This document shows positions 7,825 to 23,075 of a DNA stretch of 64,000 nucleotides, piece by piece. Numbering within the stretch: the stretch's first letter is position 1; each line of letters opens with the position of its first letter. This DNA is from Novosphingobium sp. FSW06-99 (GTDB lineage: Bacteria; Pseudomonadota; Alphaproteobacteria; Sphingomonadales; Sphingomonadaceae), in NCBI RefSeq assembly GCF_001519065.1, contig NZ_KQ954264.1:1-64000 (forward strand), read 5' to 3'. A program made the position numbers and the translations under genes. The notes under the pieces are model-generated. The model made no database searches and was not told the origin of the DNA. It saw nothing but the letters and a program-made list of their open reading frames with translations.

Positions 7825-8166
7825 TCTGGTTCTCCTGGCCGAAACCGGCCGATCACTGCGAATTGCAACAGGCCTTGCATGTCGCGTTTCATCCCAGCGT
7901 GATCGGGTCGGAATCTACGCAACCAGGCCCCCGGTGACCGAGGCGCAAGGCCGTCTGAACAACCCAAAAAATCGCGAACGGCGCCAGCACAGTCGATATC
8001 CGCAGCTCAGATCCCCGCAGCACGGCGCACGCAATGGGCTGTTGAACAGTTTCAAACGCGATCTGGAAAATAAATCTCGCCTGGAATTGAACGTTGGAGC
8101 GCTCGCCAGTCATCCACCGCAGGGATGAGGTCGTTTCGGCCCCGACCATTCCGGGAGTTTGCGACA
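7825..8166. other. Divergent intergenic region, Old Yellow Enzyme / lipoprotein
   Basis: These 342 bp hold no convincing gene. The only structure noticed is an AT-richer stretch with a small palindrome TTGAA-CAGT-TTCAA at 8042-8055, about 110 bp before the lipoprotein start. It loosely resembles FNR-type boxes but differs at the fifth base of each half. Promoters for both flanking genes should lie here, but none could be fixed by eye. Confidence 0.4.
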
Positions 8167-10329: not shown

Positions 10330-10614
10330 ATGATCGATCTTGTCCGCTCTCCGGTGTTTCGCGCGCTCACCCAGCCGCAAATGTTCGCTGGCGTCACCTA
10401 CAGCTTCTTTGTGATCAATGGCGTCGTCACGACCGAAGCCTTCCTGATCGCACGCTCCTTTCTGGTGTTCGGGGTCGCCATCGCCGTCCACGCTGTCGGG
10501 TATCTTGCCTGCCTGCGCGAGCCGCGCATCTTTGATCTCTGGCTGGTGCGGGTCAGCCGTTGCCCTCGCGGACGTACCTGGCGGCAGCACCGCTGCAACA
10601 GTTACTACCCATGA
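10330..10614 (+). CDS. virB3: VirB3-family inner-membrane protein
   Basis: A 94-residue inner-membrane protein with one or two hydrophobic segments (GVTYSFFVINGVV and FLIARSFLVFGVAIAV) and the typical VirB3 ending EPRIFDLWLVR. VirB3 works with the VirB4 ATPase in pilus assembly; in some systems the two are fused. Its stop overlaps the virB4 start (ATGA at 10611), so the usual close pairing is kept here by translational coupling. Confidence 0.87.
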   Translation: MIDLVRSPVFRALTQPQMFAGVTYSFFVINGVVTTEAFLIARSFLVFGVAIAVHAVGYLACLREPRIFDLWLVRVSRCPRGRTWRQHRCNSYYP

Positions 10615-13034
10615 CTATCTCGGGCAGGCGCTCGCGTCGTGAGGACAAGGCAGGTGCGCGCCTGCCCTATCTGCGCGTCGAGGACGAGCGCACAGTCGTG
10701 CTGCGCGACGGCAGCCTGTTGCAATGCCTGCACCTCGAAGGCTTTGCCTTCGAGACTGCTGAAACTCTCGATCTCAATCATCGCCAGGCCATGCGCGATA
10801 CCGCGCTAAAGGCCATCGCGAACTCGCGGTTCGTCGTGCATCATCACATCCTGCGCCGCCGCGTGTCGGTCGAGCTTGTCGCGCCCTTCGCTGATCCTGT
10901 CTGTGCCGAAGTCGACCGGCGCTGGCACAGCCGCCTGCAGTCGCGGCGGCTGTTCGTCAACAGCCTGTTCATCAGCGTGCTGCGGCGGCCATCGCGCGGC
11001 AAGGCGGGGTTTGCCGAACGTCTCACCGCCCCCCTTTCACGCGGGCTCGGATCGGCCGAACGTGCGGCGGTGTTGAAGCGAGATATCCGCGAACTCGATG
11101 CTGCACGCGAAGCGCTGCAGGCAGGACTTGCGAGCTACGCGCCCACGCTGCTGGCTGGCTATGACACGCCGCACGGGCGCTGTTCAGAGCCGCTCGAACT
11201 GCTCTCTGCCTTGTATAATGGCGAACTGCGGCCGGTGCTCGCGCCCGACGGCGATGCCGGTCATCACCTGCCCTATAAGCGGACCAGCTTCGGCGCGGAG
11301 GCACTGGAGCAGAAAGGTGCCGGTGCGGACAGGACCTTTGCTGCCATCCTGTCTCTGAAGGAATATCCACCGCAGGCGCAACCGGGCATGATCGATGCCT
11401 TGCTGCGCCTGCCCTATGAGATGGCCCTGTCCGAAAGCCTGTCGTTCGTGGACCGCCAGATCGGTGTCGAACGGGTCGATCTCGCCTTGCGTCGGTTCCG
11501 GGCCGCCGACGACGATGCACAGAGTCTGCGGCGTGGCCTGGTTGAGGCGAAGGACGATCTCGCATCGGGCAGATCGGCAATCGGCGACCACAGTTTCAGC
11601 GTATTGGTACGCGCGCCTTCGCTGGTTCAGCTCGATCGGGCAGCGGCGGAATGCGCCTCTGCGCTCGCCGATATCGGTGCGGTGCCGGTGCGTGAGACGC
11701 TCAACCTCGAGCCAGCTTTTTGGGCACAATTCCCTGGCAATGAGCACTATACGGCGCGCAAATCGCTGATTTCGACCGGAGCCTTCGCTAGCTTCGCCAG
11801 CCTTCACGGTTTTCCGATCGGACGGGCAGACGGCAACCACTGGGGCCAGGCGGTCAGCGTGTTCGAAACGACTTCGGCAACGCCCTATTTCTTCAATTTC
11901 CATTCCGGCGATCTCGGCAATTTCACCGTCATCGGGCCCTCGGGTTCCGGCAAGACGGTGGTGCTGAACTTCCTGGCCGCGCAGGCCGCACGCTTTGGAC
12001 CGCGGACCATCTTTTTCGATAAGGATCGCGGTGCCGAGATATTCCTGCGTGGCATCGGCGGCCACTATGCAACGTTGCGACCGGGCCACCCGACCGGCTT
12101 CAATCCGCTCCAGAATGATGGCACGCCTGACGACCGGGCCTTCCTGCGATCGCTGATCGCACGTCTGGTGTGCAAACCCGGCGAACGGCCAACCCCCGAT
12201 GAAGACGCCACCATCGCCTCTGCGGTCGTTGCCAACTACGAACAGGAAACCGGCTTTCGGCGGTTGCGCTATTTCGTCGAGTTGCTGGCGGGTGATCGCC
12301 GTCCCCAGCAGGGCGATCTCGCGTCGCGGCTGGCGCCCTGGGTTGGCGATGGCGAGCATGCCTGGCTGTTCGACAATCCGGTCGACCGGCTCGATGCCTC
12401 GACCCGCACACTCGGTTTCGACATGACCGCATTGCTTGAAGATCCGGTGCTGCGGACCCCTGCGATGATGTATCTGTTCCACCGGATCGAACAGCGCCTC
12501 GATGGTGAGCCCACCATCATCCTGATCGACGAAGGCTGGAAAGCGCTCGACGACGAAGTGTTTGCGGCACGCATTCGCGACTGGATGAAAACACTGCGCA
12601 AACGCAACGCGATTTTGGGGTTCGGCACCCAGTCGGCCCGCGATGCGCTGGACAGCAGCATCGCTTCGGCCATCATCGAACAGGCCGCGACCCAGATCTT
12701 CATGCCCAACCCGCGCGCCCAGCCTGAAGATTATTGCGAGGGTTTCGGCCTGACCTCGCACGAACTGGACCTGGTGCGGGCGCTGCCCCCGCATTCGCAT
12801 GGCTTCCTCGTCAAGCATGGCCACCACAGTGTCGTCGCGAGACTCGATCTGTCCGACATGCCCGATCTGCTCGTGCTGCTGTCGGGGCGTGAATCCTCGG
12901 TGCGCAAGCTCGATGAACTGCGCGATCGATTTGGCGATGCGCCATCCAAATGGTGGCCCCATCTGATCGGAACACCCTGGCCGGGGCTGGCAGCAGAGGA
13001 CGACACCCCGCGCCACTTGCGGATCGTACAATAA
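10611..13034 (+). CDS. virB4: VirB4-family type IV secretion ATPase
   Basis: An 807-residue ATPase that energises type IV secretion and pilus assembly at the inner membrane. Walker A GPSGSGKT is at 442-449. A Walker B-like IILIDEGWKALDD and the late GTQSARDALDS and ATQIFMPNPRAQPEDY segments follow in normal VirB4 order. The start at 10611 is chosen because it overlaps the virB3 stop and because family similarity begins with a basic stretch followed by LPYLRVEDERTVVLRDG; a TTG at 10560 would extend it 17 residues. Stop and virB6 start overlap at 13034. Confidence 0.93.
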   Translation: MTISGRRSRREDKAGARLPYLRVEDERTVVLRDGSLLQCLHLEGFAFETAETLDLNHRQAMRDTALKAIANSRFVVHHHILRRRVSVELVAPFADPVCAEVDRRWHSRLQSRRLFVNSLFISVLRRPSRGKAGFAERLTAPLSRGLGSAERAAVLKRDIRELDAAREALQAGLASYAPTLLAGYDTPHGRCSEPLELLSALYNGELRPVLAPDGDAGHHLPYKRTSFGAEALEQKGAGADRTFAAILSLKEYPPQAQPGMIDALLRLPYEMALSESLSFVDRQIGVERVDLALRRFRAADDDAQSLRRGLVEAKDDLASGRSAIGDHSFSVLVRAPSLVQLDRAAAECASALADIGAVPVRETLNLEPAFWAQFPGNEHYTARKSLISTGAFASFASLHGFPIGRADGNHWGQAVSVFETTSATPYFFNFHSGDLGNFTVIGPSGSGKTVVLNFLAAQAARFGPRTIFFDKDRGAEIFLRGIGGHYATLRPGHPTGFNPLQNDGTPDDRAFLRSLIARLVCKPGERPTPDEDATIASAVVANYEQETGFRRLRYFVELLAGDRRPQQGDLASRLAPWVGDGEHAWLFDNPVDRLDASTRTLGFDMTALLEDPVLRTPAMMYLFHRIEQRLDGEPTIILIDEGWKALDDEVFAARIRDWMKTLRKRNAILGFGTQSARDALDSSIASAIIEQAATQIFMPNPRAQPEDYCEGFGLTSHELDLVRALPPHSHGFLVKHGHHSVVARLDLSDMPDLLVLLSGRESSVRKLDELRDRFGDAPSKWWPHLIGTPWPGLAAEDDTPRHLRIVQ

Positions 13035-14245
13035 TGGCCGGTCTTGCAGCTTGTCCCGCAGCCGACGCCGGTATGCTCGGCATCAGCAATGCGCTTGGCG
13101 CGGTCGATTGCAATGTCGGCTTGCTGGTAACCTCGAGCTATGGTCGGCTGTTCGGTACAGAAGGTGTGTTCGGCACCGTTCTGACCGGACTTCTGACGTT
13201 GTACGTCGGCTTTGTCGCGCTCGGTCTGATGACAGGCCGCACCCGGCTGACGCTTTCGGGCATGGTTCCCAAAGTGCTCGCAATCGGCCTGGTACTGACA
13301 TTTGCGACCTCGTGGCCGGCGTATCATGCCCTGGTCTTTGGTTTGCTCGTGGGTGGCCCGGAACAACTTGCGACCGCGCTGGCCGGTGCGAACGGCGACA
13401 CGCTCGGATTCGCGAACCGGCTCGACCTTCTGCTCGACGCCTTCGCCACTCTGGCCAAAGTCATTGGTGATAATGTCCCCAGCAGCGATGCAAAGGCGCT
13501 GGGACCTTTGGCTGGTCCGCAGATCGCCTCGGCATTGGTGTGGTTGAGCGGGATGATGATCCTGTTGGCGTCCGCCGGCGCCCTGGTGCTGACGCGGATC
13601 GTGTTGGCGCTGCTGCTTGCGATTGGACCGGTGTTCATCGTGTTCGGGCTGTTCCGCCAGACGCGCGGATTGCTGGAAGCCTGGCTGCGGACGAGCCTGC
13701 TGTTCGCTTTGGCACCGACGCTGACCGTGCTGGCAGGCTCGGCCGCGCTGACGCTGTTGACACCCCTTGTCGACATCATCGCGCAGGACCCCGCCGGTGC
13801 GGTCGCCGATTTGCGCCCGATCATCGAACTGTTCCTTGGCTCGCTCGTCTATGTCGGACTGGTCGCGATGCTGATGTGGGCGTCAGCCAGCCTGGTACGC
13901 GGCTGGCGGTTCGGCCGATCGGAGGGAGAACCGGCTTCGTTCGACCAGGTCCACCAGGCCGGTCTGCCGCCGACCACCTTGCACGGCGCGGCATCAGCCT
14001 CAGCCGCCACGCTCGCCACCGATGCGCGCGTGAACGGGATCGTCGTCGCGCTTTCACGGGCGGGACGCGACGACATGGCCATCCAGACCGCGTCGATCCG
14101 TGTCGAACAAGTGGCCGCGAATGGCTCCAACCCGATTTCCGCGCCCGGGACCGGTTCTCCGGCGGGCACGCAACGCCGGACCGAAGGGCTGGCACAGGGT
14201 CTGCGCGCTGCGCGCCGGCCTCACTTTGCTGGAGTTGTACAATGA
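13034..14245 (+). CDS. virB6: VirB6/TrbL-family membrane protein
   Basis: A 403-residue multi-pass inner-membrane protein of the VirB6/TrbL family, a core channel component. The N-terminal part up to about residue 290 has at least six hydrophobic helices (for example LTGLLTLYVGFVALGLM and ILLASAGALVL). A Ser/Thr/Ala-rich soluble tail of about 110 residues follows. It starts by overlapping the virB4 stop (TAATG) and ends by overlapping the virB9 start. In canonical VirB operons virB8 normally lies near this position; here no bases are left for it. Confidence 0.9.
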   Translation: MAGLAACPAADAGMLGISNALGAVDCNVGLLVTSSYGRLFGTEGVFGTVLTGLLTLYVGFVALGLMTGRTRLTLSGMVPKVLAIGLVLTFATSWPAYHALVFGLLVGGPEQLATALAGANGDTLGFANRLDLLLDAFATLAKVIGDNVPSSDAKALGPLAGPQIASALVWLSGMMILLASAGALVLTRIVLALLLAIGPVFIVFGLFRQTRGLLEAWLRTSLLFALAPTLTVLAGSAALTLLTPLVDIIAQDPAGAVADLRPIIELFLGSLVYVGLVAMLMWASASLVRGWRFGRSEGEPASFDQVHQAGLPPTTLHGAASASAATLATDARVNGIVVALSRAGRDDMAIQTASIRVEQVAANGSNPISAPGTGSPAGTQRRTEGLAQGLRAARRPHFAGVVQ

Positions 14246-15081
14246 TTGGGCGCCTGGCGATTCTCGCCGTTCTGCTTTGCCCGACGGCAGCCATGGCCGG
14301 CGACCCCCGGATCCGTGAAACCTCCTATCATGCCCGGTCTGTCACGACCCTGCTGGGTTGCCCCGGCTTCCAGTCGACGGTGGCCTTCGGATCAGGTGAG
14401 CACATAGAAAACATTGCACTTGGCAATGCGGCGCTGTGGCAGGCGGTGCCGAACAAGCGCTCCGATCTTCTGTTCCTCAAGCCGGTCGGGCGAAGCGCGC
14501 AGACGAATATGACCGTGGTGACAGACCGGCATCGCTATGCCTTCGATCTACGGGCCCAGGCTGCCGCCGCTTGCCGCGCCGGACGGGTCACGTACGATCT
14601 GCAGTTCGCCTATCCAGATGAGCCGCCGACCCCTGCGGCTCAGGCGGCGGCGCCAGAGGTCCCGGCGCCGCCGCCACCCCCGGCGCCGGAAAGCGACCTG
14701 CCTGCACCAACTGCGCGCAACACCGCCTACAGCTACACCGGTGCTTCGGCGAATGTCCCGATCCGGGTGTTCGACGACGGACATTCAACCTGGCTGCGCT
14801 GGTCCGATGGCGTTGCGACACCGGCCATTTATGCGCTCGGATCGGACAAGGGCGAAACCCTGCTCAACTCAAGGATCAAAGGTGACTTCGTTGTGATTGA
14901 TAGCGTCGGGCCGGCCTTTGTCTTGCGGCGCGGGACGGCCGTGGCCGTCCTCTACAATGACGGCTTTCAGGCACCCAAGCTTGACGCCGATGCGCCCCAG
15001 CCGCGGACCGGCAAGGCCCCCCGGCATGGGGGTCTCGCCCGGTTGCTGCACGGGGCCCGGACGGCGAGTAGCGCGCCATGA
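14242..15081 (+). CDS. virB9: VirB9/TrbG-family outer-membrane complex protein
   Basis: A 279-residue periplasmic protein with the signal peptide MIGRLAILAVLLCPTAAMAG. The N-terminal domain carries IALGNAALWQAVPNKRSDLLFLKP. A proline-rich linker (about residues 130-155, PAPPPPPAPE) leads to a C-terminal domain with VFDDGHSTWLRW and VIDSVGPAFVLRRGTAVAVLYN. This two-domain layout is that of VirB9, which with VirB7 and VirB10 forms the outer-membrane core. No VirB7 lipoprotein gene is next to it. The start overlaps the virB6 stop. Confidence 0.92.
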   Translation: MIGRLAILAVLLCPTAAMAGDPRIRETSYHARSVTTLLGCPGFQSTVAFGSGEHIENIALGNAALWQAVPNKRSDLLFLKPVGRSAQTNMTVVTDRHRYAFDLRAQAAAACRAGRVTYDLQFAYPDEPPTPAAQAAAPEVPAPPPPPAPESDLPAPTARNTAYSYTGASANVPIRVFDDGHSTWLRWSDGVATPAIYALGSDKGETLLNSRIKGDFVVIDSVGPAFVLRRGTAVAVLYNDGFQAPKLDADAPQPRTGKAPRHGGLARLLHGARTASSAP

Positions 15082-16160
15082 CCGGCCTTGGTGCAAGCGA
15101 CGGCCGCGCGCCGGCCGAGCCAGGCGTCCATGCCGACGAAAGTGATCTCCACGCTGCCAGCGTGCGCTCGGCGCCCGTCGTCGGCAGGCGCGCAAGCTTG
15201 GCCGAAGGCCTTGGCCTCGCGCTTGGCTTGATCGGAGCGACGGCGATCGGGAGCGCCACCATCTTCAGTCTGGCGGCCCATAAACAGCCGGTCGCAGCCA
15301 AGGCGGCAATTCCGACGGTGCCGGCGCCTTCTCCGCCGCCCTCGGTCGCAGTCTTGCCGGGTGCTCCGGTGCCACTGCCGACCCCCACCACCCCGCCCGC
15401 CCTTGCGGCAACTGCGCCCGCCCCGCCGCCGTTGCTGGTCCTCGACAACAGCACACCGCCCACGCTGTCGGGCGCCTCTGCCCCGAACCGGACCGCGCCC
15501 GGATCGTCTGCGTCAGGCCTTGCCAAACCCGAAGCCAATCTGTCGCCCGAAGAGCAGTTTTCCGCGCGTGCGGGTGATGAGCCGGTGCCAACCAGCCATG
15601 CCCACAGGCTTGATCATCCCGGCAAAATCGTTCCGCAAGGCACGGTGATACCGGCCGTGCTGGAAACCGCGCTCAATTCCGATCTCCCTGGCTATGCCCG
15701 CGCGCTGGTCAGCGGCGACGTCCGCTCGTTCGATGGCTCACACTTGCTGATCCCACGCGGTTCGCGCCTGATCGGCCAGTACAAGAGTGCGCTCCAGTCT
15801 GGGCAAAGCCGGGCGCTGATCGTATGGAACCGCTTGCTTCGGCCCGATGGCATTTCGATCCAGCTTGGTTCGCCTGCCACGGACGATCTTGGCCAGACCG
15901 GGCTGGCCGGCAAAGTCGACAGCCATTTTTTCCAGCGCTATGGCTCGGCCATTCTTTTGTCCGTGATCGACGGACTGGCCGGCGCGGTCGGCGGTTCGGG
16001 CAATACCGTAGTGCTCGGTTCGGTCAGTGGCAGCACGGGCGCAGCCGGCGTTGCGCTCCAGAACCAGATCAAGATCCCACCAACCGTGCGCATCCTCCAG
16101 GGGACGCCGATACAGGTCTTTGCCGCGCGCGACCTCGACTTCACCGAGGACGGACGATGA
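15078..16160 (+). CDS. virB10: VirB10/TrbI-family scaffold protein
   Basis: A 360-residue envelope-spanning protein. A cytoplasmic tail of about 45 residues and one inner-membrane helix (LGLALGLIGATAIGSATIF) are followed by a long Pro/Ala/Val-rich periplasmic stretch (about residues 75-165). The conserved C-terminal beta-barrel domain begins near KIVPQGTVIPAVLETALNS and includes LLIPRGSRLIGQYKS and VDSHFFQRYGSAIL. VirB10 links the inner-membrane ATPases with the outer-membrane pore. It overlaps both neighbours by four bases. Confidence 0.93.
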   Translation: MTGLGASDGRAPAEPGVHADESDLHAASVRSAPVVGRRASLAEGLGLALGLIGATAIGSATIFSLAAHKQPVAAKAAIPTVPAPSPPPSVAVLPGAPVPLPTPTTPPALAATAPAPPPLLVLDNSTPPTLSGASAPNRTAPGSSASGLAKPEANLSPEEQFSARAGDEPVPTSHAHRLDHPGKIVPQGTVIPAVLETALNSDLPGYARALVSGDVRSFDGSHLLIPRGSRLIGQYKSALQSGQSRALIVWNRLLRPDGISIQLGSPATDDLGQTGLAGKVDSHFFQRYGSAILLSVIDGLAGAVGGSGNTVVLGSVSGSTGAAGVALQNQIKIPPTVRILQGTPIQVFAARDLDFTEDGR

Positions 16161-17149
16161 CCGCGCTGACACTTGCAACCGCCGAGGCATCCGCCGATCC
16201 GGGCGTCTATCTCAACCTCTATCTTCGCCCGTTCGCCGCCTGGCTCGACCAGCCTGATGTCACCGAGGTGATGGTCAACCGGCCAGGGGAAGTCTGGATC
16301 GAACGTGTTGGCGAGCCGGTCATGCACTGCCTCAATGCACCTGCCGTGACTGAAGTCCTGCTTGGACGTCTGGCCGCACAGATTGCGCGGGCGACCCACC
16401 AAGGCGTGAATCGGGAAAATCCGTTGCTCGCGGCGATCTTGCCCGGCGGTGAGCGCGTGCAGATGGTCGGGCCTCCGGCAACCCGTTCCGGCTGGGGCCT
16501 GTCTATTCGCCGTCATCTTACCCTCGATCGCACGATCGCGGACTATGACCAGCCTCTCCCGCCGCCATCGACCGGCACAGACCACACAGCGCCGACGGAA
16601 GCCAACATCCGCCAAGCGCCGGGCACCTATCTGCGCGATGCCGTGCTTGCCCGCAAGACCATCCTGATTTCGGGCGGCACGTCATCAGGCAAGACCACCT
16701 TCCTCAACGCGCTGTTGAAGCTGGTGCCGGCACATGAACGGATACTTACGGTCGAGGATACGCCCGAGATCGTCGTTGGCCAGCCCAACACGCTGGGCCT
16801 TGTTGCGGTCAAAGGTGCGCTTGGCGAGGCGGCAGTCAGCGTCGAGGACTTGCTCCAGGCCTCGCTGCGGCTGAGGCCCGACCGCATTATCGTCGGCGAG
16901 ATTCGCGGCCGTGAAGCGGCGACTTTTCTGCGCGCGATCAACACCGGCCACCCGGGCTCGTTCACGACTGTCCACGCCAACACGCCTGAAGGTGCGCTCG
17001 ATCAGATTGCGCTGATGGTGTTGCAATCCGGCCTGTCGCTCTCGCGCGAGGAGACAATCATCTACACGCGGTCTTTGATCGATGTCATCATCCAACTCGG
17101 GCGGATCGATGGCGCACGCCGTATCGTCGATATCCGGATACTGTCCTGA
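16157..17149 (+). CDS. virB11: VirB11-family type IV secretion ATPase
   Basis: A 330-residue hexameric traffic ATPase at the inner membrane. Walker A GGTSSGKTT is at 173-181, the Asp box is ILTVEDTPEI, Walker B-like is DRIIVGEIRGREA, and the His box is GSFTTVHANTPEGAL, all intact. The N-terminal domain begins YLNLYLRPFAAWLD. It overlaps virB10 by four bases and is the last gene of the secretion set. No virD4 coupling ATPase or relaxase gene follows; the next gene on the strand is the sigma factor at 17361. Confidence 0.94.
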   Translation: MTALTLATAEASADPGVYLNLYLRPFAAWLDQPDVTEVMVNRPGEVWIERVGEPVMHCLNAPAVTEVLLGRLAAQIARATHQGVNRENPLLAAILPGGERVQMVGPPATRSGWGLSIRRHLTLDRTIADYDQPLPPPSTGTDHTAPTEANIRQAPGTYLRDAVLARKTILISGGTSSGKTTFLNALLKLVPAHERILTVEDTPEIVVGQPNTLGLVAVKGALGEAAVSVEDLLQASLRLRPDRIIVGEIRGREAATFLRAINTGHPGSFTTVHANTPEGALDQIALMVLQSGLSLSREETIIYTRSLIDVIIQLGRIDGARRIVDIRILS

Positions 17150-17360
17150 TCGCACCGCTGGCAAGGGGATGTGTGGCCCAACGGACCTCGCACGGCGGCC
17201 AGCAACGGGACGAGGCGCGCTATGCGGACAATCGGCCTTTGTCTTGCCGGTGTTCCTGACATAAAACGAAACCTCTTTTGAGTCTCTGCAACCAGCACAT
17301 TGAACCTGTCGTGCCAATCTCGGCACCTACCGACACAGCTTTGCCGAGACCTGACCAACC

Positions 17361-17960
17361 GTGACCACCAACCGCCCCCCCAACTCGATTGCTCCGCTTC
17401 CCGCCCGCCTGCCGCTGGATGTGGAATTGCGACTTTTGCAAAGGGTGATCGAAGGGGATCGCCCCGCCTTTGAGCAGTTGTACCGCGTGTACCATCCCCG
17501 CTTGACGCGGTTTTTGATGAACCTGATCCGCCGGCCCACGCTGGTGGAAGAAGTGCTCAACGACACAATGATGGTGGTCTGGGAGAAAGGCGCGAATTTC
17601 AACGGCACCAGCAAATTGTCGACATGGATTTTCGCCATCGCCTACCGCAAGGCGATGAAGGGATTGCGCCGGCAGGACGAAGCCAGAGAAGACAAACAGG
17701 CCGAGAACCGCCCGTGCGACGCTCCGCTGCCGGAAAATGTGGCAGGACAAGAACGGATCCAGCGCCTGTTGCGCCAGGCCATCGACGAACTATCCCCCTC
17801 TCATCGGGCAGTTGTCGATCTGGCCTATTTTCACGACATGGGCTATCGCGAGATCGCTGATATTCTCGAATGTCCGGTCGATACAGTGAAAACCCGCATG
17901 TTCCATGCACGCCGCCATCTCAAGCGCCACCTAGACGGTGCGCTGGGCGACTGGATCTAG
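17361..17960 (+). CDS. ECF-type RNA polymerase sigma factor
   Basis: A 199-residue sigma-70 family protein with only regions 2 and 4, as in extracytoplasmic-function sigma factors. Region 2 covers about residues 35-100 (FEQLYRVYHPRLTRFL, LVEEVLNDTMMVVWEKG, WIFAIAYRKAMKGLRR). Region 4 covers about 135-190 (LSPSHRAVVDLAYFHDMGY, REIADILECPVDTVKTRMFHARRHL). The start is a GTG with a weak ribosome-binding site; no better start is seen. It is followed nine bases later by its probable anti-sigma factor, and probably controls this four-gene cluster itself. Confidence 0.92.
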   Translation: MTTNRPPNSIAPLPARLPLDVELRLLQRVIEGDRPAFEQLYRVYHPRLTRFLMNLIRRPTLVEEVLNDTMMVVWEKGANFNGTSKLSTWIFAIAYRKAMKGLRRQDEAREDKQAENRPCDAPLPENVAGQERIQRLLRQAIDELSPSHRAVVDLAYFHDMGYREIADILECPVDTVKTRMFHARRHLKRHLDGALGDWI

Positions 17961-17969
17961 GATACCGCG

Positions 17970-18596
17970 ATGTCACAATCCTCTACGCCCCACCCACAGA
18001 CCATCCACGACCGGATCGAGGAACTGCTGCCGTGGTACGTCAATGCCACGCTTACGGCCGAAGAAACCGGCGAAGTCGATGCGCATCTCGGACAATGCCA
18101 GGCCTGCCGCGACAGTCTGGCGGTTGAAGAAGCGCTGGCCAGGCAGGTCAAGATGCTGCCGCTTGACGCACACCTGGAAGAAACACCCGCAGCCCCCAGA
18201 TTCCCCGCGCGGGCCCAGCCGTTCTGGCATCGTCGCGTGGGCATTGGCTGGGCCCTTGCCAGCCCCCTGCTGGCCGCTTCGCTCGCTGCCATTGCAGTGC
18301 TTGGCCTGCGGCCCGGCGCCCCGTCCCTCGGTCAGGCCGGTCCTTATGTGGCCCTGAGTGCCGCCAGTTCGCCAGGACAGGGCAATCTGCTGGTAAAGCT
18401 GCAGCCCGATGCCAGCGAAAATCAGGTGCGCGATTTGCTGCAGAAAGTCGGCGCCCGGGTCGTCGATGGGCCCACTGTTGCCGATGCCTGGGTGCTGCGC
18501 GTTCAGCCAGATCAGCGTGACACCGCGCTGCACAGACTGCAGCAAGCCTCGATCGTGACCCTGGCCCAACCTCTCGTACCGGATGCGCAGCAATGA
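17970..18596 (+). CDS. Zinc-finger anti-sigma factor with propeptide-like periplasmic domain
   Basis: A 208-residue membrane anti-sigma factor. The cytoplasmic part has a ZAS-type zinc motif H39-x3-C43-x2-C46 (HLGQCQAC). One membrane helix spans about residues 93-113. The periplasmic part (138-202) reads LLVKLQPDASENQVRDLLQK, then ADAWVLRVQ and LQQASIVTLAQPL. That arrangement resembles the I9 or fervidolysin-type propeptide of subtilases, and the adjacent S8 protease has a similar segment at its residues 99-130. I infer that the protease may bind or cut this domain. The stop overlaps the protease start by four bases. Confidence 0.85.
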   Translation: MSQSSTPHPQTIHDRIEELLPWYVNATLTAEETGEVDAHLGQCQACRDSLAVEEALARQVKMLPLDAHLEETPAAPRFPARAQPFWHRRVGIGWALASPLLAASLAAIAVLGLRPGAPSLGQAGPYVALSAASSPGQGNLLVKLQPDASENQVRDLLQKVGARVVDGPTVADAWVLRVQPDQRDTALHRLQQASIVTLAQPLVPDAQQ

Positions 18597-19855
18597 TCGC
18601 ACAAGGATGGTTGCGACGCGGGGCGCGCGTTGCACTGGCATTGGCGTTACTCTGGTTGACGCCCGCGTTGGTCGATGCGGAACCCGTTCGGGCGGAAAAT
18701 GCGCCCCGGCAAGTGCTGGTGATGATCCGGATCGCACCGCCCCACCGCAAGGCAACGGCCGATTATGCCACCAGCTATGGCGATGGCGAAGATCAGGTTG
18801 CCCGGCGTCGCCGCGCGAAAGAGATCGCGGCGCGCAACGGATTTGACCTGCAGGACAACTGGCCGATGCCCCTGCTGGGGGTCGATTGCTTCGTCATGAC
18901 GCTGCCGGCCGGCACCACCGTCGATCACGCCATTCAAGTGCTCTCCCACGAAGCCAACGTGGCCTGGGCCCAGCCCATGGAAGAATTCAACGGCCTTGCA
19001 CTGGAGGGAAGGCGTGATCCTTTGCTCGATGCCCAACCGGCACAAACGGCGTGGCACATCAGCGATCTGCACAAGCTGGCGACCGGCCGCGGCGTGAGCG
19101 TGGCGGTCATCGACAGTCGCATTGATACCAGCCATCCCGACCTTGCCGGTCAGTTCTCGCACGTGCGCGATTTCGTCACCCCGCATGCCGCCCAGCCCGG
19201 CCCTGCCGAACGCCACGGCACCGCTGTTGCCGGAATTATCGCGGCGCGTGCCGACAACGGGATCGGCGTTGCCGGGCTTGCCCCGGAATCGCGCCTGATG
19301 GCGTTGCGGGCGTGCTGGCAAAGTCCGGCAACACCTGCAACCACCTGCAACAGCTTCACCCTCGGGCAGGCGCTTGAATTCGCGATCGAGCAGGGCGCGC
19401 AGATCATCAATCTCAGCATATCGGGCCCGCCTGATCGCTTGTTGGCCAACCTGGTGCAAGTTGCGCAACATCGCCACATCGCGATCGTCGCGGCAGTCGA
19501 TCCGCACAATCCGGCGGCAAGCTTTCCGGCATCGCTGGCCGGTGTCATCTCCGTGACCGCCGATGCGCATTCCGGCATGCTCGCCACCTCCTATGTCGCA
19601 CCCGGTCGCGATGTTCCGACGACTGTACCCGGCGGCGGATGGGGGCTGGTCAATGGCTCTTCGTTTTCGGCCGCGCATGTCAGTGGCCTGTTGGCACTGG
19701 TACGACAACGTTCCGGCAGCGCGCAGATCGCGCTGGCGCACAACGATCAGCGCGAGATCAACGCTTGCCTGACGCTGGCCCATCTCGCCGTGGGCTATCG
19801 CTGCGGCACCGACAACCGGCTGGCCCTTGTCGCCCAGGCCCACGGCAACAACTAA
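18593..19855 (+). CDS. S8 (subtilisin-like) serine peptidase, exported
   Basis: A 420-residue exported subtilase. Signal region at 1-30 (VALALALLWLTPALVDAE), propeptide-like region at about 40-131, then the catalytic domain. The triad is visible as D174 in VAVIDSRID, H208 in ERHGTAVAG and S357 in NGSSFSAAH (GSS replaces the usual GTS). The position of the oxyanion-hole Asn in the usual AAGN motif reads AAVD (D303), an uncommon change that may lower activity or alter specificity. It is encoded between the anti-sigma factor (4-base overlap) and a TorF-like porin, so it is likely part of the signalling pathway rather than a bulk protease. Confidence 0.9.
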   Translation: MIAQGWLRRGARVALALALLWLTPALVDAEPVRAENAPRQVLVMIRIAPPHRKATADYATSYGDGEDQVARRRRAKEIAARNGFDLQDNWPMPLLGVDCFVMTLPAGTTVDHAIQVLSHEANVAWAQPMEEFNGLALEGRRDPLLDAQPAQTAWHISDLHKLATGRGVSVAVIDSRIDTSHPDLAGQFSHVRDFVTPHAAQPGPAERHGTAVAGIIAARADNGIGVAGLAPESRLMALRACWQSPATPATTCNSFTLGQALEFAIEQGAQIINLSISGPPDRLLANLVQVAQHRHIAIVAAVDPHNPAASFPASLAGVISVTADAHSGMLATSYVAPGRDVPTTVPGGGWGLVNGSSFSAAHVSGLLALVRQRSGSAQIALAHNDQREINACLTLAHLAVGYRCGTDNRLALVAQAHGNN

Positions 19856-19861
19856 GGTTGA

Positions 19862-20665
19862 ATGTCAGCTCACCAGCATCAGCCGAGCAGCCGAGCAAAG
19901 CGCCACATGCCGGTTCCCAATCGATCACCGGCCTGGCGGCTGGCGGGTGCCTGCGCAACCGTGATCGGTGCTTCCGCCGGACATCCGGCCCATGCCCAAC
20001 TTGCAGGGTCGATCAGCGTCGAGAGTGACACCTACCTGCGCGGGTATAGCATCAGCGACAACCAGCCCACGATCACCGGCCAGGTCGATTATGACACGCA
20101 AGCGGGGGTCTATGTCTCCGGATCGGCAACCAGCACGCTGGTGGACGGCACGGCAAAATTTGTTGGCTGGCAGGGCGACATCGGCTTTGTCCGGCGGCTG
20201 AATCGAATGCTGTCAATGGACCTGGGCGTCAGCCGCGTCGATTTTCGTCAGGTCGACGTCTACTCAAAGGGCATAAGCTACAACGAGATCTATACCGGTC
20301 TGACCTATCGCCCGGTCACCTTGCGCCTGTCCTATTCGCCAGAATACCAGGCAAGCCATACGCAGACCCTGTACGCCGATCTTGCCATCAGCCAGGCGGT
20401 GGCCCGCCATCTCGTGATAAGCGCACATTTTGCAGAATTGCTCTACTTGAACCAACCTGCCCCCGCCAGGACGCGCTATTACGATACCTCTGCGACCGCG
20501 TTTCCGTACCAGCCCGACAATTGCGACTGGAGCCTGTCTGCAACCAGACAGCTTGGTCCATTCGAACTGCGCGCAAGCCTGATCGGTGCTGGCAACCGTG
20601 GCTCTCCGGTGGCACGTGCCAATCGGCCGGCGAGCGCGACAGTGGGCGCGATCTGGTCCTTCTGA
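19862..20665 (+). CDS. TorF-like putative porin
   Basis: A 267-residue outer-membrane beta-barrel protein. A long N-region is followed by a signal peptide ending in HPAHAQ. The mature part begins LAGSISVESDTYLRGYSIS, typical of the TorF putative porin family (TIGR02001), and has alternating beta strands to a C-terminal aromatic (AIWSF). The start is ATG 19862; Met16 at 19907 would give a more usual signal peptide. It starts seven bases after the protease stop and is the last gene of the sigma factor cluster. It may be the envelope protein that the cluster monitors or supplies. Confidence 0.8.
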   Translation: MSAHQHQPSSRAKRHMPVPNRSPAWRLAGACATVIGASAGHPAHAQLAGSISVESDTYLRGYSISDNQPTITGQVDYDTQAGVYVSGSATSTLVDGTAKFVGWQGDIGFVRRLNRMLSMDLGVSRVDFRQVDVYSKGISYNEIYTGLTYRPVTLRLSYSPEYQASHTQTLYADLAISQAVARHLVISAHFAELLYLNQPAPARTRYYDTSATAFPYQPDNCDWSLSATRQLGPFELRASLIGAGNRGSPVARANRPASATVGAIWSF

Positions 20666-20697
20666 CACCCATCCGACACACTGCCGGATGGGTGTCA
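20663..20697. terminator. Bidirectional terminator embedding both stop codons
   Basis: A 13-bp perfect stem (TGACACCCATCCG / CGGATGGGTGTCA, 9-base loop) starts with the TGA of the porin gene and ends with the reverse-strand TGA of the cytochrome gene. One palindrome thus supplies both stops and a two-way terminator. Confidence 0.75.
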
Positions 20698-21063
20698 GCG
20701 CAGCGTTTCAAGATAGGCAACCAGGTCGACAGCCTGTGAGCGGTTTTGCAGGCCGGAAAAGGGCATCCGGTTGCCCTTGACCACCGCCTGCGGATTGGTG
20801 ACATATTTGGCCAGTTGCTCGGCGGTCCAGGCAAAGCCTGCCGACTTCATGGCCGCCGAATAGCTGAAGCCGGGGACCGATCCCGCCTTGCGCCCAACCA
20901 GGCCGTGAAGCCCTGGTCCAACGACAGCATTGGTACCGGTCGAGTGGCACACGGCACAATTGGTCCTGAAGACTTTTGCTCCCGTCGCCAGGTCTGCCGC
21001 CAATGCCGGTGATGCACAACCGATTGCAACCACGGCGGCGGTGTTGATCAGAATGCGAGCCAT
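20695..21063 (-). CDS. Class I cytochrome c
   Basis: A 122-residue periplasmic mono-heme cytochrome c. It has a signal peptide ending in ALAAD, the heme motif C36-A-V-C39-H40, and a likely axial methionine M100 in GNRMPFSGL. GPGLHGLVGRKAG and FSYSAAMK are typical of mitochondrial-type class I cytochromes. The gene overlaps the 3' end of the upstream heme-tagged barrel gene by 16 bp, so the two are co-transcribed and probably exchange electrons. The terminal acceptor is not evident. Confidence 0.92.
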   Translation of the reverse strand: MARILINTAAVVAIGCASPALAADLATGAKVFRTNCAVCHSTGTNAVVGPGLHGLVGRKAGSVPGFSYSAAMKSAGFAWTAEQLAKYVTNPQAVVKGNRMPFSGLQNRSQAVDLVAYLETLR

Positions 21064-22460
21064 GTAAAAAACCTCAGTGTGTTGTTGTCGGACGCATTGG
21101 CACCGTTGCCATCGTAATTGCGGACTGCGCCGTTGAAGCGCCCATAGGCGGTGTATTGCACCCCCATGCGCACGTTGAAGAGCGGGCCAAGCGGCGAGTT
21201 GCCCGCGCCCCAGGGCGTATAGTCGACCTGAGTGATGATGCCGTTGCTGTCGGGCCGGTTGGTGGGCGCAAACAGGTTAGCGTTGCTCGATCCGGTGATG
21301 AGGAACGGGTTCAGTGTCAGCCCGACCTTGCCGTGCCAGTAATAGGAGATATCGCCGCGCACCTCGTCAAGCGTCGTGCGCGCGCAATCCGGCGTGCCGG
21401 CATTACCAAAAAGACCAAGGGCGCAACTGGCCTCCAGATTGCTCGCCTCGTGCGCATAGCGCAGGTTGAGCGCCACGGTGTCACCTTTCGAGAGCGCCTT
21501 TTGCCATGAGGCATCGAGGCCGACATCGGCGTAGTGGTCGGAAAAGCCAGAGCTGCTATCGCGGCCCGGATAAATCTGCGCCTTGAGCAAAAAGGCGCCT
21601 GTCTCAACGGTGCCACCGGCAAAGTCCGTCTGGTACGCGAGCCGCGCATAAGGAGCCAGACCATGAATGGCGCCGGGGCTGGTAGGGTCAACGCCGAGCC
21701 ACGAGAGCGTGCCGGCCGCCGGACTGGAATAGCCACCTCCCTCCACATAGAGGTGGTGGTTGAACCAGGCATAGGCAGTCAGGCCAACCACGTTTTGCGC
21801 CAGCGCTCCGTCGATAAGCGGCGCGGCGGCGGGCACCTGCGGCAATGCGCTGGCCGTATAGGGAAACCCCCAGGCGGGGGTGGTATTCCATGGATCTTGT
21901 ACCGTGGGCGAGTTGTTGAACGAGAGGCCATAGGTCGCATCGGCCCCCAACAGCCTGCCACTGTTGACCAGCCGCAGGTCAAGGTTGTCCCAATGGAACT
22001 GGTGCGCGACACCATCCCAGGTAAACTGGGAAAAACCCCCGATATGCGATCCCAAGCCTCCCGCTACGAACAGGCTCGCCTGGTCGAGTGCAACATTGTC
22101 GTTACCGGCAAAATTGGCAGGCGGCGGGCTCTGGTCCCTGGCAGTATGCGTGAACGACGACTGCACCATCGCCGCCAAAGGAATGCTGTCCCTGGTGCGC
22201 AGCGTATACCCTCCCAGTTTGAACTCGCGCCCGAACGGGGTAAGCTGCGGGCCAAAGCCGCCAACGTGACACGCGGCGCATGGTTGACCGGTCTGATCAG
22301 CGTAAGCCGGTAGCGCGCGAGCAGGTGGCGTGATCAGCGCCGCCAGCAAACCGCAGAGCGCCGGGGCCGCAAGACACAGACCCAACGCTCGGCGACGCGG
22401 ACCCGACCAAGCCCGCATTGCCAAAGGCAAATCCCCCAAAGCGAGTCCATCCACCGTCAT
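21048..22460 (-). CDS. Outer-membrane barrel protein with N-terminal c-type heme motif
   Basis: A 470-residue exported protein. A hydrophobic signal region (about 25-50) leads to ADQTGQPCAACHVGGFGP, in which C61-x2-C64-H65 is a c-type heme site. The rest (75-470) is a long series of amphipathic beta strands with aromatic residues and many N/G turns, ending FFTWLAF, as in an outer-membrane barrel. This layout recalls fused cytochrome-porins such as Cyc2, although I cannot show that it is an orthologue. A TTG at 22475 could add five residues; ATG 22460 with GGGAG upstream is preferred. Co-transcription with a cytochrome c supports an electron-transfer role. Confidence 0.75.
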   Translation of the reverse strand: MTVDGLALGDLPLAMRAWSGPRRRALGLCLAAPALCGLLAALITPPARALPAYADQTGQPCAACHVGGFGPQLTPFGREFKLGGYTLRTRDSIPLAAMVQSSFTHTARDQSPPPANFAGNDNVALDQASLFVAGGLGSHIGGFSQFTWDGVAHQFHWDNLDLRLVNSGRLLGADATYGLSFNNSPTVQDPWNTTPAWGFPYTASALPQVPAAAPLIDGALAQNVVGLTAYAWFNHHLYVEGGGYSSPAAGTLSWLGVDPTSPGAIHGLAPYARLAYQTDFAGGTVETGAFLLKAQIYPGRDSSSGFSDHYADVGLDASWQKALSKGDTVALNLRYAHEASNLEASCALGLFGNAGTPDCARTTLDEVRGDISYYWHGKVGLTLNPFLITGSSNANLFAPTNRPDSNGIITQVDYTPWGAGNSPLGPLFNVRMGVQYTAYGRFNGAVRNYDGNGANASDNNTLRFFTWLAF

Positions 22461-23075
22461 GTTCACTCCCGCCAAGCTGGCAATAAGGCGCGGCCCGCAT
22501 GTCTGGCCCGCTCTACCGCTAGTGGCTTTGCGGCTGGCTTTGGTTCATCCCGACCAGGCCAATTGCGTCGCGCAGCAATTTGAAGCGGAGGATTTTGCTA
22601 GGCCGCAGCGCACGAAAGGGCGACGCCCGAACGGATTGGACAGCCGCATACCAAGCGGCGCTGACGTGCAATCATACCTCCCGCCCCTCCTCGCCGCCCG
22701 ACCACCATAACCAGCGAGTATCGTTGGTGGTCGGGCGGCGAGGAGGGGCCGGAGGTATGACCAGCGCTTTGCGCGAAAGTGGGCACTTGGTGCCCGTCAG
22801 CGCGGAGATGGCTTCGGTGGACGCGCAGCAGCCCGCTCTTCGGGCAAATCCGTTTGATAAACCCAGATCCGGCCTCGGCCTTCTACGGCTTCCACCCGCC
22901 CCGGGTTATCAACGTCTGGGAGGACGCATGAACGGCCAAAAGCAACGCAATCGCGCAAATTTCAGCCAGACCGACCGCGAATCGGTCCCGAAATATGACT
23001 GTAGATGCCAAAGTGGACCCAGAGGGCCCAGTTTTGCCCTAAGTAACTTATTTTATTATCATTACTGGTCTAAAA
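22461..23075. other. Gene-free region of about 615 bp
   Basis: No supported gene. It contains the 35-bp inverted repeat at 22673-22759. Nearer the tRNA it holds a stretch without recognisable features (22780-23030) and a short AT-rich segment (23040-23075). A frame open from 22580 to 23290 crosses the inverted repeat and the tRNA antisense strand and is not believable. Confidence 0.6.
22673..22759. repeat. 35-bp near-perfect inverted repeat (copy B of the REP-type family)
   Basis: Arms 22673-22707 and 22725-22759 pair over 35 bp with a single mismatch around a 17-base loop. The inner part, CCGACCACC / GGTGGTCGG with a loop containing a CGATA-type core, is also found in the 37.2 kb repeat (37255-37290). 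There too it is followed by a G-rich stretch leading to GGGCCGG. It is not flanked by a transposase gene. Confidence 0.75.

Follow-up and report, generated by a model that had tools for sequence, protein, structure and literature searches.

An ECF sigma factor operon pairing an anti-sigma factor that bears a propeptide-like domain with an S8 protease, a candidate site-1 protease

Gene layout and conservation of the module

The window analyzed here is a stretch of 64,000 nucleotides at the start of contig NZ_KQ954264.1 of Novosphingobium sp. FSW06-99. It contains four co-directional genes on the forward (+) strand, which encode an ECF sigma factor, a membrane anti-sigma factor (ASF), an S8 protease and a TorF-like outer-membrane porin. 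The sigma factor (17361..17960; 199 aa, GTG start) has Sigma70_r2 and r4_2 above the Pfam cut-off. The ASF (17970..18596; 208 aa) carries a zf-HC2 domain, with profile matches to ChrR, RslA and RsiW, and its reading frame shares 4 bases with that of the S8 protease (18593..19855; 420 aa; Peptidase_S8 in Pfam, E 1.4e-28), which is a zymogen with the triad D174, H208 and S357. The porin (19862..20665; Gcw_chp, PF09694) passes the NCBIfam TorF model TIGR02001 with 49.4 bits against a cut-off of 47.15 and is the last gene of the conserved module. An initial annotation made from the letters alone had placed the ASF and S8 genes and their 4-base overlap correctly and had named a TorF-like porin as the last gene, which agrees with the TIGR02001 match, and all stretches that it quoted were found in the sequence. 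It spanned 17970-19855; the sigma gene, the sigma promoter and the porin lie outside that interval.

The S8 alignment was scanned against a genome collection of 84,980 species, and the best 80 of the 165 relatives were kept; the window and these 80 loci form set 1. By their genome names, the best 80 belong to Sphingomonadales, Caulobacterales, Burkholderiales and Xanthomonadales, with one Actinobacteria bacterium, and the loci of set 1 span Alpha-, Beta- and Gammaproteobacteria. Alignments A3 and A4 hold 69 of the 81 sequences and A5 holds 55. In these loci, which were found by S8 alone, the ASF domain lies directly upstream of S8 in every case (80 of 80 among the best 80 of 165). The overlap between ASF and S8 is 4 nt in 74 of the 80, and a TorF-like porin is downstream in 79 of the 80. 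A sigma gene is upstream in 74 of 79 testable loci, in two of which (L043 and L044) it is a fragment. Among the five loci without it, the sigma gene is divergent in L096 and lies downstream beside a second ASF in L073, and none was found in L078, L103 and L111. The gene order that the initial annotation wished to see surveyed is thus kept across three proteobacterial classes, and the case that it had set against its own reading, a neighboring ASF without the domain where the protease is kept, occurs in 0 of 80 S8 loci.

Within the family, ASF matches were found in 17 of 298 genomes. Twelve loci from eleven of these 17 genomes have sigma factor, ASF and S8 in all cases and the porin in eleven, and nine of the twelve were taken as places found again in the S8 scan. 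The five weakest of the 17 genomes were left out at first, and one of them, G068, came back as L198 with all four genes. In two of the twelve loci, L032 and L033, the sigma factor is a different one (25-29% identity) and the ASF has no zinc motif, while the ectodomain, S8 and porin are kept. The outer module appears to have moved onto other cytoplasmic parts.

A further search used the ASF domain only. At E 0.001 it found matches in 19 of 385 class genomes, and at E 0.0001 in 27 of 398 phylum genomes. After three false matches (L167-L169) were removed, the 41 loci that were new were called set 2, a label and not a clade: L203, L206, L207, L209, L211 and L212 come from one genus, and L213 and L214 from one genome. 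S8 is present in 36 of the 41 (35 on the same strand, one on the opposite strand), though not directly adjacent in L158, L201 and L205, and L165, L200, L208, L210 and L215 are without S8. A porin match exists in only 6 of 41. The coupling of ASF domain and S8 is stronger than the initial annotation could know. The genes after TorF presumably encode a propeller-like protein in 16 loci, another propeller-like protein in 8 and a cupredoxin-like protein in 8.

The propeptide-like ectodomain and the S8 zymogen

The zf-HC2 match covers ASF residues 15-47 above the Pfam cut-off and recurs at E 0.01 in 65 of 69 aligned ASFs. It includes the zinc motif H39/C43/C46 of the initial annotation, which belongs to the columns conserved in at least 90% of the 69; in five relatives (L063, L081, L096, L102 and L104) the motif was read as missing. 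The membrane helix had been put at residues 93-113; AF2 also has a helix, at low confidence, with the limits 99-112. With its zinc domain, its ECF sigma neighbor and this low-confidence helix, the protein falls among the ZAS/zf-HC2 membrane anti-sigma factors.

The C-terminal part of the ASF, residues 137-208 (18378..18593), consists of a subtilase propeptide-like domain and a tail. PF22148 (Fervidolysin_NPro-like) matches residues 137-201 with E 8.8e-5 (23.3 bits; cut-off 21), and it matches 46 of 69 aligned ASFs, the window's own included, at E 0.01 or better. Based on the 69-ASF alignment, AF2 confidently predicts a beta-alpha-beta-beta-alpha-beta domain (strand 140-144, helix 150-160, strands 163-166 and 173-177, helix 180-192, strand 196-201). 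The block pLDDT is 91-98 over residues 141-200 and 67 for the C-terminal tail, and pLDDT falls below 50 at linker residues 123-128 and 130-133. The best chains in VIA-align are the subtilisin propeptides 1scj_B and 1spb_P (Z 8.0), followed by the Tk-subtilisin propeptide (7.5), the PC1/3 prodomain with furin (7.5) and POIA1 (1v5i_B; 7.3), although Z 7-8 is also reached by other ferredoxin-like chains, such as a mitochondrial ribosome chain at 7.5. Foldseek alone gave no match below 0.001 for this domain. The profile of the ASF domain matches that of the S8 pro-region with E 7.7e-5 and a probability of 62%, and its control match to the S8 catalytic domain has E 0.54 and a probability of 0.1%, which supports homology between the ASF ectodomain and the S8 pro-region. 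Profile and fold together place the ASF domain in the I9 / fervidolysin N-pro class, as the initial annotation had read the pattern in both proteins, and the fold prediction, which had been set beforehand as the test that could overturn that reading, came out propeptide-like.

For S8, the AF2 model is a full zymogen (mean pLDDT 85) and aligns with pro-subtilisins, prodomain included, over residues 37-400 at a VIA-align Z of 38, the structural matches being Pro-S324A subtilisin and pro-subtilisin E. Its own pro-domain, residues 39-135 (18707..18997), was assigned from this match and from homology to the ASF domain. Propeptides act as intramolecular chaperones, and this, together with the 4-base gene overlap in 74 of 80 loci, could be taken to mean that the ASF domain helps S8 to fold in trans and that sigma control is a separate matter. 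We regard this as very improbable: S8 has a complete pro-domain of its own, and a folding helper leaves both the membrane anchor and the linker motif described below unexplained.

The S8 pro/mature junction, predicted as FNGL|A at residues 132-136 (18986..19000), was placed 13 residues from the last pro-domain strand; the same spacing between strand and junction is found in BPN'. In the 81 precursors of set 1 the junction pattern is Tyr/Phe, a variable residue that is often His/Arg, a small residue, Leu/Gln/Arg and Gly/Ala/Ser, with the aromatic P4 in 81 of 81; at P1, Leu and Gln each occur in 27 and Arg in 9, and the rest have other residues. AF2 draws a strand at residues 131-134, at the predicted junction. 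The alignment of mature subtilisins begins only at S8 residue 142-143, some seven residues further on, and the actual cut may therefore be slightly downstream of the predicted one, by a few residues.

The tail of the ASF was examined against the S8 pro-tails. It extends exactly 13 residues beyond the last strand in 63 of 81 ASFs, and it is Gly-rich with mostly Pro or Arg as the last residue. An aromatic residue is found in the tail of 0 of 81 ASFs, compared with the P4 aromatic of 81 of 81 S8 pro-tails, so the ASF tail reproduces an inhibitory tail poorly; measured against S8's own tail only, it lacks a suitable P4 with which to fill S4-S1. Part of this constancy in length may stem from the ribosome-binding site of S8, whose gene overlaps that of the ASF.

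These features bear on the idea of the initial annotation that the ASF acts as a decoy propeptide. According to this idea, which recalls RsiV, the ASF domain inhibits and senses S8, another protease makes the site-1 cut, and free S8 or competing substrates change the exposure of the linker. The propeptide-like domain and its coupling to S8 stand, the subtilisin propeptides and POIA1 that it matches come from complexes with subtilisins, and the tail length is largely fixed; moreover, RsiV binds and inhibits the lysozyme active site, and this binding is needed for site-1 cleavage (PMC5014341). The part that did not hold is the inhibitory tail, given its Gly-rich, non-aromatic composition, and the S8-like motif sits in the linker, where a decoy leaves it unexplained. 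We therefore consider the decoy reading unlikely, though worth keeping in view.

Conservation of the active site was also summarized. In set 1, D174 and H208 are present in 81 of 81 S8 proteins and S357 in 80 (with one gap), an Asp-His-Ser triad in a subtilisin fold. The canonical oxyanion Gly-Asn was not found in the S8 proteins of set 1: D occupies the AAxD place in 80 of 81 and N in one, where D303 aligns with the Gly and not the Asn of AGN, and the alignment to the Asn itself is ambiguous. Ala361 stands at the subtilisin Pro position in 80 of 80 scored. Judged by these residues, S8 proteins without Gly-Asn may have weak or no catalysis, and an acid-activated or PC2-like role of the oxyanion Asp was considered, for which passages of PMC7144994 do not give the residue. 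In a protector or pseudo-substrate arrangement comparable to RseB, an S8 with little or no activity might occupy the ASF, its cleft filled by the YxxL linker or by the domain, and guard the ASF against a different site-1 protease for as long as it stays in place; binding, no less than cutting, would be served by conservation of the linker motif. The triad, however, is kept almost without exception, the aromatic P4 of S8 is retained in 81 of 81, as expected if self-processing continues, and in set 2 D, H and S are present in 36 of 36 S8 proteins with Gly-Asn at the oxyanion place in 29 of them. Such a protector appears quite unlikely to us. Cys99 of the pro-domain and Cys241 and Cys252 of the catalytic domain, each in 81 of 81, would permit redox input.

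A linker motif that resembles the predicted S8 junction

Between the membrane and the propeptide-like domain, the ASFs carry a juxtamembrane motif of the form Y-H/R-A/T-L-G/S. It was located with a position weight matrix (PWM) built from the five S8 junction positions of the 81 precursors of set 1, with no ASF sequence used, and run along each ASF; for L088 and L101 the S8 protein was read from an upstream start, which leaves the junction columns unchanged. In 81 of 81 ASFs the best 5-mer is this motif, at its exact place in all of them, and it starts 9-16 residues before the propeptide-like domain (81 of 81). Its composition in the 81 ASFs is Y/F (76/5), H/R (37/33), A/T/V, L (81) and G/S/A, so that the position matching P1 is always Leu, and Leu129 of the ASF is invariant in 69 of 69 aligned. 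In the window the motif is YVALS, residues 126-130 (18345..18359), with the predicted site-1 cut after Leu129, and its PWM score is among the three lowest.

The mean best score is 12.6 in ASFs versus 4.9 in shuffled sequences, and the highest of 200 shuffle means is 6.0. Sigma factors, which are unable to meet S8, score 8.1 versus 5.1 when shuffled. Sequence conservation by itself is thus enough to lift a score, which makes shuffles a lenient null; TorF is not enriched over shuffles with this PWM. As a stricter control, 361 PWMs were made from all 5-residue windows of S8 residues 39-403, and only the junction window (from residue 132) reaches 81 of 81, the runner-up (from residue 334) reaching 43 of 81 and the third 10 of 81. 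Reciprocally, the S8 junction ranks first among the 5-mers of its precursor in 52 of 81 and is in the top five in 66 of 81. A control with zf-HC2 proteins gave 7 matches in 21 relatives, one of which is the window's ASF, and three proteins, too few to weigh, scored 1.4-4.3.

The match also holds between classes. When the loci were split by genome names, the PWM from Beta/Gamma S8s picked out the motif in every Alpha ASF (47 of 47), and that from Alpha S8s did so in every Beta/Gamma ASF (34 of 34), a group that includes L040 (Actinobacteria bacterium) and L106 (Proteobacteria bacterium). The set-2 PWM found the motif in 65 of 81 set-1 ASFs; on the ASFs of set 2, the best match lies where it was expected in 23 of 36 cases (when shuffled, 5.8 on average and 16 at most), and of these 23, 15 are the motif on reading and 8 are not. 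In the five ASFs without an S8 partner the motif was found in 0 of 5. Within one locus, P2 is the same in S8 and ASF in 41 of 81 cases versus 24.6 in shuffled pairs, and 0 of 1000 shuffles reach 41. For P4, P3 and P1', residues shared within a locus are no more frequent than expected by chance across the 81 loci, and P1 is uninformative. The within-locus agreement at P2 could reflect relatedness.

With an aromatic, junction-like motif between the membrane and the domain, the ASF has the appearance of a substrate to which a domain for docking or inhibition is attached. The 361-window control counts in favor of S8 as the site-1 protease, and the caveat on the place of the junction and the shared ancestry of set 2 count against it.

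Promoter, proposed mechanism and related systems

A predicted autoregulatory ECF promoter, TTGAACC-N16-GCACCTA, lies before the sigma gene at 17300..17329 (+) and was identified by pattern search and enrichment in upstream regions. Of 65 non-redundant regions upstream of sigma, 21 contain TGAAC-N17-GCAC, with shuffle maxima of 4-5. At least 12 of 14 positions of TTGAACC-N16-GYAYTAA, a consensus taken from those same regions, are matched in 55 of 75 loci and in 4 of 375 shuffles, and the spacer is 16 in 61 of 72. The pattern TTGAACC-N16-GYAYNWA, relaxed to admit the site of the window, is matched once across the 4.79 Mb genome, at 17300-17329 of the window, and the control with the pattern reversed gave 0. 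A promoter of this kind is shared by most of the loci. The operon is thus probably under the control of its own sigma factor, and weaker sites elsewhere are possible. Among 17 other genomes, 16 exact sites were found in 12 genomes, ten being the operon's own and six extra. The genes after the extra sites are, as we take them, those of a beta-barrel protein, a small secreted protein, two ferritin-like proteins and a radical-SAM-like protein; one extra site precedes a relative of the c-heme protein of the window (21048-22475). No common theme was settled among the genes downstream of the six extra sites in these 17 genomes.

We propose that S8 is the cognate site-1 protease, which docks on the propeptide-like domain of the ASF, cuts the linker and frees the sigma factor, and we put the probability of this reading at slightly under 60%. 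What the analysis shows is the genes, the predicted folds, the pairing, the promoter and the motif match. For the binding, the cutting, the order of events and the signal, we infer the following course. The N-terminal domain of the ASF, usually zinc-binding, would hold the sigma factor. Outside the membrane, a short and probably flexible linker would present its copy of the S8 self-processing motif (Y-H/R-A/T-L|G/S), followed by the propeptide-like domain. Mature S8 would bind this domain like its own propeptide, and might in this way be brought to the membrane and held in check. Once S8 activity outweighs this restraint, the linker would be cut and the large ASF ectodomain shed, and an intramembrane site-2 protease would complete the destruction of the ASF. 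The freed sigma factor would transcribe its own operon from TTGAACC-N16-GYAYTAA, giving more sigma factor, ASF, S8 and porin, and the released domain may in turn act as an S8 inhibitor that ends the signal. Two matches to the M50 site-2 protease family are over the cut-off in this genome; M50 matches exist in 14 of 14 control genomes, so their presence says little. A point against this reading is that propeptide-style docking would fill the cleft from its non-prime side, so that a single S8 might be unable to cut the ASF on which it is docked.

A subtilase is the first protease in regulated intramembrane proteolysis in mammals, where SKI-1/S1P acts on SREBP and ATF6; this enzyme is, to our knowledge, eukaryotic and membrane-bound, and we know of no propeptide-like docking domain in its substrates. 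Nor do we know of a propeptide-like domain in RseA, and the ectodomain of RsiV is not known to be a subtilase propeptide. POIA1 and the subtilisin propeptides (I9) share the fold class of the ASF domain, with 1v5i being a complex with subtilisin; they are not fused to an anti-sigma factor, and the ASF tail, by contrast, has no aromatic P4. In the RseA/DegS/RseP/sigma E system of Escherichia coli, the order is the one expected here, a periplasmic site-1 cut and then a site-2 protease (PMC10202637). DegS belongs to the HtrA family and carries a PDZ domain (PMC8103513); it is not a subtilase. For sigma V of Bacillus subtilis, the ectodomain of RsiV binds and inhibits the lysozyme active site (PMC5014341), and the site-1 protease is a signal peptidase (SipS, SipT; PMC10202637). 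The proposed role of the ASF ectodomain as an enzyme binder or inhibitor would resemble that of RsiV, whose target is lysozyme, whereas the enzyme here is a protease encoded in the same operon.

DegS, PrsW, signal peptidases and Prc are among the first proteases named in passages of a review of site-2 proteases (PMC10202637). The word subtilisin is absent from the main text of that review, and subtilisin, subtilase and propeptide are absent from PMC8103513. Among the titles and abstract starts of the matches listed, no description was found of an anti-sigma factor with a propeptide domain or of a bacterial subtilase as site-1 protease; most subscription literature lay outside this search, and the 2021 ECF reclassification may describe a group with an S8 neighbor. 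In the literature searched, nothing contradicts the initial annotation, which did not know this as a described system, and the arrangement suggests regulated proteolysis of an anti-sigma factor in a form for which no description was found.

More broadly and more tentatively, at somewhat less than even odds in our estimate, these loci may represent a widespread proteobacterial class in which a subtilase serves as dedicated site-1 protease and the ASF evolved by acquiring this protease's propeptide along with a duplicate of its processing site. A single zymogen would then supply the parts for docking, inhibition, cleavage and shut-off alike, in parallel to the eukaryotic S1P pathway. If true, this would give a testable answer to how one ECF sigma family is switched on, with the protease and the cut bond named, and an example of a regulator assembled from pieces of the zymogen of a protease. 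The promoter would be usable for reporters, and because ASF and S8 are paired in Alpha-, Beta- and Gammaproteobacteria, a result obtained in one laboratory strain could carry over to many.

Genes downstream of the porin and possible sigma targets

Beyond the TorF-like porin gene, two genes convergent with the module (window 20695-22475, minus strand) encode a small cytochrome c and a 475-aa protein, the latter containing a single CxxCH motif and having no match in Pfam. Relatives of the 475-aa protein were found near the module at loci L041, L057, L094 and L112 of other genomes (56%, 53%, 55% and 36% identity, respectively), and at L041 the relative is accompanied by a cytochrome c, with an exact copy of the predicted autoregulatory sigma promoter upstream. 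Therefore, the 475-aa protein relatives and the cytochrome c may be targets of the sigma factor. In the window, a site with two mismatches to this promoter lies upstream of the convergent genes (22522-22548, minus strand); such sites number 36 across the window, which is not above chance.

Further promoter copies adjoin the operon at L044 (locus position 7857), L067 (8036), L041 (2584) and L055 (about 2047, minus strand), those of L044 and L067 being immediately 3' of the porin gene. Genes also recur 3' of the porin in other loci (e.g. L077, 7981-9057; L050, 7989-8369), and their products are presumably propeller-like periplasmic proteins and cupredoxin-like proteins.

Conserved cysteines of the S8 protease

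Cysteines 99, 241 and 252 of the S8 subtilase (window 18887-18889, 19313-19315 and 19346-19348), one of which is within the pro-domain, are each kept in 81 of 81 S8 proteases (that of the window and 80 from the best 80 of 165 relatives). They are a possible redox switch.

Locus arrangement and genomic setting

At L073 (5199-9119; the same place as L030), a single S8-porin pair is flanked by two anti-sigma factor genes, both bearing the propeptide-like domain, in the order anti-sigma factor, S8, TorF, sigma, anti-sigma factor. In the window, type IV secretion (conjugation) genes identified by Pfam (10560-17149) are located immediately upstream of the operon, encoding proteins of the VirB4, VirB6/TrbL, VirB9/CagX, VirB10/TrbI and VirB11 types (VirB11 matched as T2SSE), and thus the operon may lie within or adjoin a mobile element.
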